Shown here: piece after piece, positions 52,345 through 55,531 of the stretch
How positions within the stretch are numbered: the first letter of the stretch is position 1
How the letters are laid out: each line of letters begins with the position of its first letter
Assembly (NCBI GenBank): GCA_007695175.1
Contig: REEH01000124.1
Location: 1 to 63,299 of the forward strand
From: Spirochaetaceae bacterium
GTDB lineage: Bacteria; Spirochaetota; Spirochaetia; DSM-27196; Alkalispirochaetaceae
Length of the DNA stretch: 63,299 bases
Direction: 5' to 3'
Program-made: the position numbers and the translations under genes
The notes under the pieces: model-generated
Databases searched by the model: none
What the model saw: only the letters and a program-made list of their open reading frames with translations
Told to the model about the DNA's origin: nothing

Positions 52345-52416
52345 GTCTCCTTCGTCTAGTGGTTAGGACACCGGGTTTTCATCCCGGCAACGCGGGTTCG
52401 ATCCCCGCAGGAGATG
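52345..52416 (+). tRNA. tRNA-Glu (anticodon UUC)
   Basis: Cloverleaf with acceptor GUCUCCU/AGGAGAU (G-U at the first pair), anticodon stem CCGGG/CCCGG with loop UUUUCAU giving UUC, T arm CGCGGG/CCCGC-type with UUCGAUC loop, discriminator G52416. It is the intact, promoter-bearing copy; its 3' part from the anticodon stem onward is repeated exactly at 55038-55084. Confidence 0.95.
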
Positions 52417-52419
52417 CTA
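52373..52419 (+). repeat. Left copy of 47-bp direct repeat (putative attL in tRNA-Glu)
   Basis: 47 bases from the anticodon stem of tRNA-Glu to 3 nt past its end are identical to 55038-55084; flanking bases differ on both sides. Exact repeats of a tRNA 3' half at the two ends of a segment are the usual footprint of tyrosine-recombinase integration, with the tRNA kept intact on one side. Confidence 0.88.
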
Positions 52420-52562
52420 ATTAAACCGTTACAGGGCCTCATCGTGTCTTCCCGGAGACGAGAATCGGTGACGTCTCGCAGCAACAATCCTCATGGCGTC
52501 ACGGGTACTCAACTGCCCTGGCAAGTTCTCTCGAGTGACTCATCTAAACGGGTCCACCTCCA

Positions 52563-52631
52563 TTGGCTTTGACCCGATTACATGGTATATTCGGGTCAGA
52601 TAGCGACCTGAATAGGATGCTTTTCGGGTCA
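52563..52631 (+). promoter_or_regulatory. fic promoter with four operator half-sites
   Basis: TTGGCT (52563-52568), 17-nt spacer, TATATT (52586-52591). Perfect inverted half-sites TGACCCGA (52570-52577) and TCGGGTCA (52591-52598) flank the -10 region; a second pair, CGACCTGA (52604-52611, two mismatches) and TCGGGTCA (52624-52631), lies 33-34 bp further, ending 5 nt before the GTG. Upstream, 52420-52562 has hairpins GAGACG/CGTCTC (52455-52477) and GTGACG/CGTCAC (52468-52502) but no gene. Confidence 0.65.
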
Positions 52632-52636
52632 GAAGG

Positions 52637-53779
52637 GTGATTGGCGTGGGTGAGTTTATCTGGGAACACAATGAGTGGCCTCGTTTTCGGTATGACACAG
52701 GGCAACTCTTGCAGGCCCTTGGTCACGCTCGATCGCTGCAGGGCGCACTTCTCGCTCACGCCGATGCGTTTTCACTGGTAGATCAACGGGATCTTTTTGT
52801 TGACGAGGCGTACGCTACGTCCGAGATAGAAGGGGAAAAGCTCGATCGCGAACGGTTGCGGTCTTCGGTGGCCGAGCAACTCGGCCTCCCCACGGCGGGA
52901 ATGCCGGTGCCCGATCCCCAATCCGACGCCCTGGTTTCCGTCTTGCTTGATGCTACCAGGAACTACGACACGCCCCTAACCGCCGAAAGACTGTTCGGGT
53001 GGCAGGCGGCACTCTTCCCGACAGGTTACTCCGGTCCGTTTAAGGTAGAGGTAGGAGGCTGGCGCCAAAGCGCCGCCCCAATGCACGTCGTATCCGGCTC
53101 GATGGGACGGGAACGAATCCATTTCACCGCGCCGCCGGCAGAGCGCCTCGACGATGAGATGCGCCAGTTTCTCTCCTGGTGGAATGGCCCCTCCCGTGAG
53201 AAGGACGGCATCCTTCGGGCCGGTGTGGCCCACCTGTATTTCGTGACGATTCATCCCATTGCTGATGGCAACGGCCGGATTGCTCGGGTACTTACTGACA
53301 TGGCCCTCGCCCAGGAAGAGCGAACCGCTCGCCGGTTGTATTCACTTTCTCACCGTATTCATTCCGTTCGATCCGAATACTATCGTATCCTGGAGGATGT
53401 CCAACGGGGCGATCTCGAAATCACCGAATGGCTCCTCTGGTTTCTGGAGACGTACGCCCACAGCCTCACCTCCGCGGAGGGACGCATACACCGGTCGCGC
53501 GTGATCGATCGCTACTACCGATGGATGGCCAGTATTCCCCTCAATGACCGGCAGACCAAGGTGATGAAGAAGATGATCGAGGCATATCCGGAGAGATTCT
53601 CCGGGGGAATGACAAACAAGAAGTACGTCTCCGTCACCGGCACGAGTAGCGAGTCCGCTAAACGTGATCTCGTCGATCTGGTGCGTAACGGCCTCCTCAA
53701 AAAGGGCGATGCCGCCGGCCGATCAACCTACTATGTGCTTGCATCTCTTGATACCGAAGGTGAACCTGGATCGTCGTGA
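52637..53779 (+). CDS. Fic-family AMPylase-type protein with self-inhibition motif and C-terminal winged helix
   Basis: 380 residues. The N-terminal region has the DUF4172-like WEHNEWPRFRYD, then an inhibitory helix motif TSEIEG (residues 61-66, matching S/T-x-x-x-E-G) and the Fic core HPIADGNGRIAR (His206 to Arg217), where Ile replaces the usual Phe. The last ~90 residues look like a winged helix (TNKKYVSVTGTSSESAKRDL and then LVRNGLLKKG). Fic enzymes add AMP to protein hydroxyls; the N-terminal inhibitory glutamate makes it class II. The C-terminal DNA-binding fold and the operator array suggest autoregulation. GTG 52637 is preferred; GTG 52646 is also possible. Confidence 0.87.
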   Translation: MIGVGEFIWEHNEWPRFRYDTGQLLQALGHARSLQGALLAHADAFSLVDQRDLFVDEAYATSEIEGEKLDRERLRSSVAEQLGLPTAGMPVPDPQSDALVSVLLDATRNYDTPLTAERLFGWQAALFPTGYSGPFKVEVGGWRQSAAPMHVVSGSMGRERIHFTAPPAERLDDEMRQFLSWWNGPSREKDGILRAGVAHLYFVTIHPIADGNGRIARVLTDMALAQEERTARRLYSLSHRIHSVRSEYYRILEDVQRGDLEITEWLLWFLETYAHSLTSAEGRIHRSRVIDRYYRWMASIPLNDRQTKVMKKMIEAYPERFSGGMTNKKYVSVTGTSSESAKRDLVDLVRNGLLKKGDAAGRSTYYVLASLDTEGEPGSS

Positions 53780-54768
53780 CAAACGTCAAAACCCGATATC
53801 CCGCGTTCGGTCCCGACTGCGGGCGTTGGCGAGAATCTCCTCCACAATCTGCCGGCTCCGGTGTGCGCCCGGTGCAACGCATGGCGTTCGATTCGATCCA
53901 GAGATTCCGAGGTGGAACAGAAGCGGGGGCGAAGGAGGAGGCCACCGTGGGTGCCGGCGTCTCTTCGAACAGTCCCGCCCTGAGGTCATGCGGGGTATTG
54001 GAGCGCAGGGCGAAGAGCAGTGGGCGGCCAAGAGCGGTCGGTCAAACAACGGCTGTCGCCTTGCAGCAGGTCTATGGCTACTACGATGCCGTCGTCGAAT
54101 CAGACATTTCCCGAGCTGACGGTGTCGCCAGGAATCCGCAACGAGTCAAAAATCTGATGCGTTCCTACGCCCTTTTCGTCGCTTCTGACACCAAGATGGC
54201 TACTATACGCACAGATATGATTGTGAACAGCCTCGATACTCTCGACTACAATACGATATTGTCATACATAAACGCTCTCAAGCAGATCTTTGTCATCGAA
54301 GACCTGCCCGCCTGGAACCCCAAGCTTCGTTCACGCAGCGCAATCAGGACTACTGACACGCGTCAATTCATCTATCCCTCAATTGCTGTTGCCGCCCTGG
54401 GACTCGGCCCCCAGGATCTTCTCAACGACCTCGAGACAATGGGACTCTTCCTTGAATCACTCTGTGTTCGCGACCTGCGGGTCTTCGCCGGCGCCCTTGA
54501 TGGGTCGGTGTATTACTACCGGGACAAGTCCAGCCTTGAGTGCGACGCAGTCATCCATCTTCGAAATGGAGATTACGGCCTGGTCGAGGTCAAACTGGGC
54601 GGCAGTGCCCTCGACAACGCCGCCGCGAATCTTCTGAAATTACAACAGAAGATCGACATCGAGCGCATGAAGAGCCCTTCGTTTCTGATGATCTTGACCG
54701 GCACAAAGTTTGGCTACCGCCGTGATGATGGGGTATACGTTATTCCGATCGGGTGTCTCGGAGAATAA
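53776..54768 (+). pseudogene. Truncated ATPase of the DUF4143 family (ATPase half lost)
   Basis: From about 54015 the frame matches the C-terminal half of AAA_14/DUF4143 proteins: GRPRAVGQTT, then DISRADGVARNPQRVKNLMR, TILSYINALKQIFVIEDLPA, and the end YGLVEVKLGG with the nuclease-like Glu-x-Lys and YVIPIGCLGE. The N-terminal ATP-binding domain (about 170 residues, Walker A and B) is missing; 53780-54010 reads as unrelated low-quality sequence open in this frame. It is most likely a deletion remnant. If translated from GTG 53776 the product would have 330 residues and an unnatural N terminus. It directly follows fic with a 4-nt overlap of frames. Confidence 0.65.
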
Positions 54769-55037
54769 TGGTCTCTGGCGCAAATTGTTCTTCTGAGCAG
54801 CATATGACAACGTGCGCCTGTACTGATGATCATAACATGGCTGTCCGAGGAGCAGGTAACCGGGCGTGCGTAATCCGGAACACCCGGTGAACCCGTTTCC
54901 AACGAGCGCGTCGTTTAACGACTGGATAGTGTAGCAAAAAGTGCAGCATTTTTTACCTCAATTCGTGCTATACCGTGGTACGAACTGATACGTAGACAAT
55001 AAGAAACAATAAGATACGAGCTGGTCGGTTTCCGGCT
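54769..55037. other. Non-coding right end of the islet
   Basis: 269 nt with no credible gene on either strand. It is more AT-rich than its surroundings and has a short direct repeat, ACAATAAGA (near 54998 and 55008), and a T-rich stretch near 54950. It may hold the former recombination arm sites; nothing further can be claimed. Confidence 0.5.
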
Positions 55038-55084
55038 GGGTTTTCATCCCGGCAACGCGGGTTCGATCCCCGCAGGAGATGCTA
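55038..55084 (+). repeat. Right copy of 47-bp direct repeat (putative attR, tRNA-Glu 3' fragment)
   Basis: Identical to 52373-52419. It contains the anticodon loop, variable region, T arm and 3' acceptor strand of tRNA-Glu but not the 5' half, so it is not a working tRNA. Confidence 0.88.
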
Positions 55085-55087
55085 TCT

Positions 55088-55112
55088 AAGCCCCGCGGTG
55101 TAGGGGTTTATT
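55088..55112 (+). terminator. Probable original tRNA-Glu terminator
   Basis: AAGCCCC (55088-55094) pairs with GGGGTTT (55103-55109) with one G-U, followed by TATT. It starts 4 nt after the right repeat, where a terminator for tRNA-Glu would have been before the islet inserted. The T run is weak. Confidence 0.45.
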
Positions 55113-55121
55113 CCTTCGACA

Positions 55122-55328
55122 TTACGTTTCTCTTCCCATCGCCCGCCGAAGTATACGAAACGAATTGTACGGCCGGTCGATCGACCTGGTCGCCCTCGGA
55201 TGAACTTGCCCCGAGCAAGGCTGGACGACGAGGTTCCGTATTGCCTCAATGGTGTGCTGTTGCTGCGTTCGGTCGATCCTGCCAAGCTGTTTCTGAGCAA
55301 TACGCAGGATTTCGATCGCGTAACTCAC
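55122..55328 (-). CDS. RelE/ParE-like toxin, shortened
   Basis: 68 residues starting MSYAIEILRIAQKQLGRIDR, which resembles the first helix pair of RelE/ParE toxins (~85-90 residues). The middle continues to DRPYNSFRILRRAMGRET, a weak match to the YRIRVGDYRVIY strand, and then stops; the last strands and C-terminal catalytic residues are absent. It may be an inactivated toxin. The GTG start overlaps the antitoxin stop by 4 nt, the usual toxin-antitoxin order. A neighbouring frame continues the similarity poorly, suggesting frameshift decay. Confidence 0.6.
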   Translation of the reverse strand: MSYAIEILRIAQKQLGRIDRTQQQHTIEAIRNLVVQPCSGQVHPRATRSIDRPYNSFRILRRAMGRET

Positions 55329-55531
55329 GCCTCGTAGTCTTCCCGGATTTCCTGCACGGCTTGTTCGAACGGAATACGGTCGGCAGTGTGCTGCTGTGCA
55401 GCATCATACGCACGGATATCGTCAAGTTCCTCGAGCTCACTGACAATTTGTTCCCAGTCCGAAACAGGCAAGAGGATTGCTTTACGGTTCTGCTGTTCAT
55501 CAACAACGTATTCTGGATGCACGTTCACCAT
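55325..55531 (-). CDS. Phd/YefM-like antitoxin
   Basis: 68 residues, MVNVHPEYVVDEQQNRKAIL at the start, then LPVSDWEQIVSELEELDDIR and a C-terminal acidic part ending EIREDYEA. The composition and the DDIRAYDAA region match small antitoxins paired with RelE toxins, which bind DNA at the N terminus and neutralise the toxin with the C terminus. GAGGT 7 nt before ATG 55531 is a fair ribosome binding site. The downstream toxin gene overlaps by 4 nt. Confidence 0.65.
   Translation of the reverse strand: MVNVHPEYVVDEQQNRKAILLPVSDWEQIVSELEELDDIRAYDAAQQHTADRIPFEQAVQEIREDYEA

Follow-up and report, generated by a model that had tools for sequence, protein, structure and literature searches.

Related systems

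Several classes of integrase-free islands at RNA genes have been described. CIMEs are decayed ICEs or IMEs in which both att sites are kept and the genes for integration and transfer are gone (PMC5704250). At ssrA of Dehalococcoides, 15 islands without an integration module are known, and a CIME state has been suggested for them (PMC3146451). The tDNA islands collected by Islander consist of an intact tDNA and a displaced cognate fragment, with an integrase required; anticodon-centred sites account for 2083 of these islands, versus 1836 at the T-stem region (PMC4383910). Fragments of tRNA genes that stem from insertions are widespread (PMC9897764).

The islet described here is of a known kind, and CIME-like remnant is the most fitting name for it. 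As in a CIME, its ends (attL and attR) are both kept as direct repeats, in this case exact over 47 bp, genes for an integrase or for transfer are absent, and the target tRNA is restored. It differs from a CIME in that no accreted ICE or IME lies beside it now, in that its origin from an ICE or IME is putative, and in its size of only 2.7 kb; internal loss is seen only in a truncated DUF4143 gene. With the Dehalococcoides islands it shares an RNA-gene target, a direct repeat of the 3' end of that gene, and an interval that holds cargo only. The target is tRNA-Glu, however, whereas it is tmRNA in Dehalococcoides, and the islands there belong to a serine-recombinase system and are arrayed in tandem with others that have an integrase, none of which was found at the islet. 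The geometry is that of the A-type tDNA islands of Islander (intact tDNA with a displaced cognate 3' fragment oriented like it, identity from the anticodon arm), but the tyrosine integrase gene on which that collection relies is missing from the interval. The view taken in the original prediction, that an integrase is present in the known elements of this type, was overstated, as integrase-less islands flanked by RNA-gene repeats have been described (PMC5704250; PMC3146451).

The tRNA-Glu gene and its displaced 3' half

The window (the whole stretch of 63 299 nucleotides that was analysed) is contig C118 of a genome of 3.72 Mb (G000), which is distributed over 256 contigs and 97% complete. The following features define the ends of the islet:

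52345–52416, plus strand: intact tRNA-Glu(UUC), attL side of the islet (Rfam RF00005, 61.6 bits; ARAGORN, with the end at 52417)
52373–52419, plus strand: repeat copy 1, the 3' portion of tRNA-Glu, which begins at position 29 and includes the CTA that stands in the place of CCA (sequence comparison)
52376–52382, plus strand: anticodon loop TTTTCAT, putative 7-bp crossover segment, with CCGGG and CCCGG on either side
55038–55084, plus strand: repeat copy 2, the displaced 3' fragment of tRNA-Glu (attR) (sequence comparison)

The two 47-bp copies are identical without a single mismatch and are spaced by 2665 bp from start to start, so that both the exact repeat and the spacing given in the original prediction were borne out by sequence comparison and shuffle controls. 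A 25-nt part of the repeat occurs twice in the window versus an expectation of zero from shuffles, even with three mismatches permitted, and the local match score of the two copies is 44 versus a maximum of 12.5 among 40 shuffled controls. The match is far above chance. The tRNA-Glu gene at 52345 is the only copy with a UUC anticodon found in the assembly; the CUC isoacceptor is encoded on contig C236.

The identity of copy 2 with the tRNA runs from position 29, which is base three of the anticodon stem on its 5' side, to the 3' end of the tRNA, and the fragment is oriented as the intact gene is. The anticodon arm reads CTGGG-TTTTCAT-CCCGG in copy 2 versus CCGGG-TTTTCAT-CCCGG in copy 1. These boundaries support the earlier proposal of a repeat that begins in the anticodon stem, as fits a crossover in the anticodon loop. 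When the 28 nt that precede copy 2 were compared with the 5' half of the tRNA, 7 of 28 positions were identical, and 44% of random islet segments align equally well.

An old tandem duplication of the tRNA region had been named beforehand as an explanation that would overturn the prediction. In the fuller form considered here, genes would have been inserted between the two copies of an unequally duplicated tRNA-Glu region, and the second copy would have decayed. Complete tandem tRNA-Glu genes do exist in the order (G008, G021). The perfect 47 bp on the 3' side stand next to 28 nt on the 5' side that retain no similarity, however, and decay would not end sharply at the anticodon stem. With a fragment that lacks its 5' half and possesses a separate terminator, this history is very unlikely. 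A full tandem duplication of the tRNA is likewise disfavoured by the missing 5' half upstream of copy 2.

Proposed history of the islet

The reading preferred here, to which a probability of about 0.7 is assigned, is that the islet is a partly deleted integrative element at tRNA-Glu(UUC) that has kept both ends and lost its integrase. The element would have been inserted into the tRNA gene by site-specific recombination, with a tyrosine integrase as the agent and a crossover in the anticodon loop. A new 3' half supplied by the element would have left the tRNA whole, and the original 3' half would have been displaced, together with a terminator, by 2665 bp downstream. Later deletions would have removed the integrase and most other genes of the element, leaving fic intact and depriving the DUF4143 gene of its ATPase half. 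We infer the crossover point, the nature of the enzyme, and the timing of the loss after insertion.

In such a CIME-like state the islet would depend for any movement on an incoming element that recognizes the same site. Recombination between its two ends may still be possible; present mobility without outside help is not likely. The predicted junction of a 2665-bp circle consists of the fragment flank CTGGTCGGTTTCCGGCT, the 47 bp, and ATTAAACCGTTACAGGG; the predicted empty site consists of the 5' half of the tRNA, the 47 bp, and TCTAAGCCCCGCGG. Because the presumably unselected fragment is exact and the frame of the DUF4143 remnant is still open, the data suggest that the islet is not very old.

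The islet offers a nucleotide-precise case of a tRNA gene that records a past insertion after the recombination enzyme has gone. Loci such as this would be overlooked by island finders that are based on integrases and, if their ends still recombine, could serve as convenient natural test substrates.

Search for an integrase

Genes for an integrase, a transposase, or transfer functions were not found in the interval by means of ORF translations, Pfam, and six-frame pieces; the interval consists of fic, the truncated DUF4143 gene, and non-coding DNA, in agreement with the original prediction (tblastn was used in addition). None of the six-frame pieces tested from the non-coding stretches gave a Pfam match to an integrase remnant. 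Deletion of the integrase, deduced from absence alone, is regarded as probable, and the lack of a remnant is a point against the preferred reading.

Only two genes for tyrosine recombinases were detected in the assembly, both on contig C152 and scoring as XerD and XerC; the search was directed at tyrosine recombinases alone. Among related spirochaetes, G006 and G050 have more than these two Xer genes. A resident enzyme is therefore unlikely to move the islet, and mobilization in trans by a resident integrase, which had been put forward as one of two possibilities, was rejected within the range of this search: XerC and XerD stand alone in a 97%-complete assembly. An element sharing the site specificity of the islet was not detected in the genome of the window. 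Viral contigs contained no exact attP-like 3' half of tRNA-Glu and no relatives of fic that could serve as donors; for the DUF4143 gene, one distant relative was found on them.

Contents of the interval

Between the two repeat copies the following features were assigned:

52570–52636, plus strand: region preceding fic, contains inverted repeats of CGGGTCA and is conserved in front of the homologue in G006:C71 (DNA comparison)
52637–53779, plus strand: fic, 380 aa, intact, with DUF4172 and Fic domains, SoFic-like (Pfam; PADLOC SoFic, 2.3e-41; PDB 8cil, 1.3e-90)
53780–53997, no strand: non-coding stretch at the place of the missing ATPase half of the DUF4143 gene, no homology detected (tblastn; six-frame Pfam)
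53998–54768, plus strand: probable DUF4143 pseudogene, residues 165–423 of an ATPase of about 425 aa left, AAA domain gone (tblastn; Pfam PF13635)
54769–55037, no strand: right-end non-coding DNA, 49% GC, in which the short sequence ACAATAAGA is directly repeated (54996 and 55006; sequence analysis)

The motifs of the Fic protein were read from the translation. HPIADGNGR corresponds to the SoFic-type motif HPFx(D/E)GN(G/K)R with F replaced by I, and the N-terminal TSEIEG, of the inhibitory type, agrees with (S/T)xxxE(G/N); Pfam and PADLOC point to the same type. The closest solved structure is 8cil (E 1.3e-90). The protein is called SoFic-like rather than SoFic in the strict sense, because its score of 54.4 bits lies far under the cut-off of 550 for the NCBIfam SoFic equivalog. 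The CGGGTCA inverted repeats on the 5' side of the gene (52570–52636) may be an operator through which Fic controls its own gene.

A homologue of fic with 85% identity is present in a genome of the same genus (G006, contig C71), with no tRNA near it. DNA similarity between the two loci is confined to the promoter region and the gene (52570–53767 of the window), and fic therefore appears to travel as a unit of its own. This homologue also bears on the quality of the assembly. A chimeric metagenome join at a repeated tRNA sequence could be imagined, since the assembly, in 256 contigs, resembles a metagenome assembly, a relative of the same genus (L065, Spirochaeta sp.) is labelled a MAG, and tRNA sequences are common to members of a community. 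At 47 bp the repeat falls short of common k-mer sizes and read lengths, however, and with fic having so close a counterpart within the genus an artefact of this kind is highly improbable.

The remnant of the DUF4143 gene encodes a sequence that is 57% identical to a plasmid protein of Bacteroides ovatus (tblastn). Residues 1–164 are absent, which indicates a deletion within the islet, and the gene is most likely a pseudogene. Defence matches of the cargo in PADLOC are SoFic and PDC-S01, and with a SoFic-like Fic protein and a gene of the DUF4143 type the cargo looks like defence genes.

The base composition of the islet is not foreign, which counts against the preferred reading. Its GC content of 56.1% compares with a mean of 58.8% (sd 2.3), its tetranucleotide distance ranks 35 of 304, and a foreign composition was accordingly rejected, both measures being close to those of the window. 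Arm-type repeats of at least 9 bases common to both ends of the islet were not found.

Terminator-like flanks

Sequences that resemble the terminator of tRNA-Glu follow both repeat copies:

52422–52436, plus strand: TAAACCGTTACAGGG, left arm and loop of a hairpin found behind tRNA-Glu in the relative G001, right arm absent in the window (unique in both genomes, same offset)
55087–55110, plus strand: hairpin resembling a terminator, TAAGCCCC...GGGGTTTA, after the fragment, where relatives have the terminator of tRNA-Glu (fold −12.3 kcal/mol; relatives)

Bases just outside the two copies had been described as differing. Exact identity does stop at 47 bp, but a weaker similarity runs about 8 nt further and gives a 55-bp repeat with 95% identity; it is accounted for by the likeness of both flanks to tRNA-Glu terminators. 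The counterpart of TAAACCGTTACAGGG in G001 (L066, 9902–9916, minus strand) is part of a hairpin that is complete and folds. Among 61 genomes, the half-hairpin behind tRNA-Glu is common only to G001 and the genome of the window.

The flank of copy 1 may be native or may have been brought by the element from a G001-like donor. Since the T-stem of the tRNA-Glu of G001 differs from that in the window, G001 itself is disfavoured as the direct donor. The presence of half a G001 terminator beside copy 1 could mean that native flank, rather than the element, adjoins this copy, which would speak against the preferred reading. In a rival account, copy 1 and its flank are native, and the fragment and its terminator came with foreign or rearranged DNA when the tRNA took part in a recombination event, homologous or illegitimate, during transformation or a chromosomal rearrangement. 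The uniqueness of the half-terminator in both genomes and the broken synteny downstream of tRNA-Glu in the genome of the window are in favour of such an event. A fragment beginning within the anticodon stem would still need to be explained, however, most simply by an earlier site-specific integration, and the G001 allele has the different T-stem; this course of events is considered unlikely.

Comparison with relatives

The comparison covered about 40 loci of tRNA-Glu from the order and class; many of the contigs are short, and a larger island whose fragment lies far off would escape it. At most loci the tRNA is directly followed by a terminator hairpin, with no fragment within the DNA examined. 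Displaced 3' fragments of tRNA-Glu were found at four loci (the window, G046, G004, and G030), with an integrase in none of the intervals. The fragments of the three relatives gave scores of 18–19 versus shuffle maxima of 11–12:

G046 (L070, G046:C134, 2880–5601): a 34-bp fragment, 82% identical, lies about 2649 bp from tRNA-Glu and is followed by a terminator; the cargo, as judged by translations only, comprises two genes, one Gfo/Idh-like and one TIM-barrel-isomerase-like, resembles sugar metabolism, and is unrelated to that of the window
G004 (L065, G004:C265, 9544–11300): tRNA-Glu and its terminator are followed by one complete gene, which by translation resembles the AAA/DUF4143 type, and by an 18-bp T-arm fragment near the contig end
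G030 (L138, G030:C245, minus strand): an 18-bp fragment, followed by a separate terminator, lies about 220 bp behind an intact tRNA-Glu, with no gene between

In G046 the T-stems of the two 3' halves carry paired changes (GAGGG/CCCTC versus ACGGG/CCCGT), and both fold. The halves are separate foldable alleles, as would be expected if an incoming element had supplied one of them. A pattern search of 393 members of the phylum returned the fragment in the genome of the window only; the search demands the acceptor end AGGAGATG and covers a set without G046, and its negative is limited accordingly. The displaced fragments show that tRNA-Glu(UUC) has been struck repeatedly in this mostly uncultured group of spirochaetes. 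In G008 and G021 (L072, L073), complete tRNA-Glu genes stand in tandem at a distance of about 100 bp.

The absence of integrases from all four intervals, and the nearly equal lengths of two of them (2665 bp in the window and about 2649 bp in G046) with unrelated cargo, speak for a different reading, in which a minimal cassette lacked an integrase from the outset and was mobilized in trans by that of a second element using the same tRNA-Glu site. The broken DUF4143 gene speaks for decay instead, agreement in length between two cases can be chance, the genome of the window has XerC and XerD only, and none of the PF00589 matches listed adjoins a tRNA-Glu locus. A cassette of this type is accordingly improbable. 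More speculative still, and hardly to be expected, is a general docking site at tRNA-Glu(UUC) of these spirochaetes, into which small integrase-free cassettes (0.2–2.7 kb) would be inserted singly by outside enzymes in an integron-like traffic.

The search for an empty site that was proposed with the original prediction was successful in part. Relatives with tRNA-Glu and a terminator but no fragment were found; none of them shares the right flank. The genes found behind tRNA-Glu in G005 and G006 (partly also in G007, G008, G012, and G021) are located on contig C58 in the genome of the window (L110, G000:C58, 8847–16928), so that synteny is broken and the chromosome is rearranged at or beyond tRNA-Glu. 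Because the DNA past the fragment is syntenic with no relative, a strict empty site cannot be drawn; with the ancestral neighbours on C58, the state before insertion is not strictly reconstructable, a further point against the preferred reading.

Directly behind the terminator of the fragment, on the minus strand (55122–55531), a RelB-like antitoxin gene is accompanied by a short toxin-like ORF, which gave no significant Pfam match and may be truncated. The DNA downstream of the fragment includes, besides the RelB-like gene, a sulfatase.
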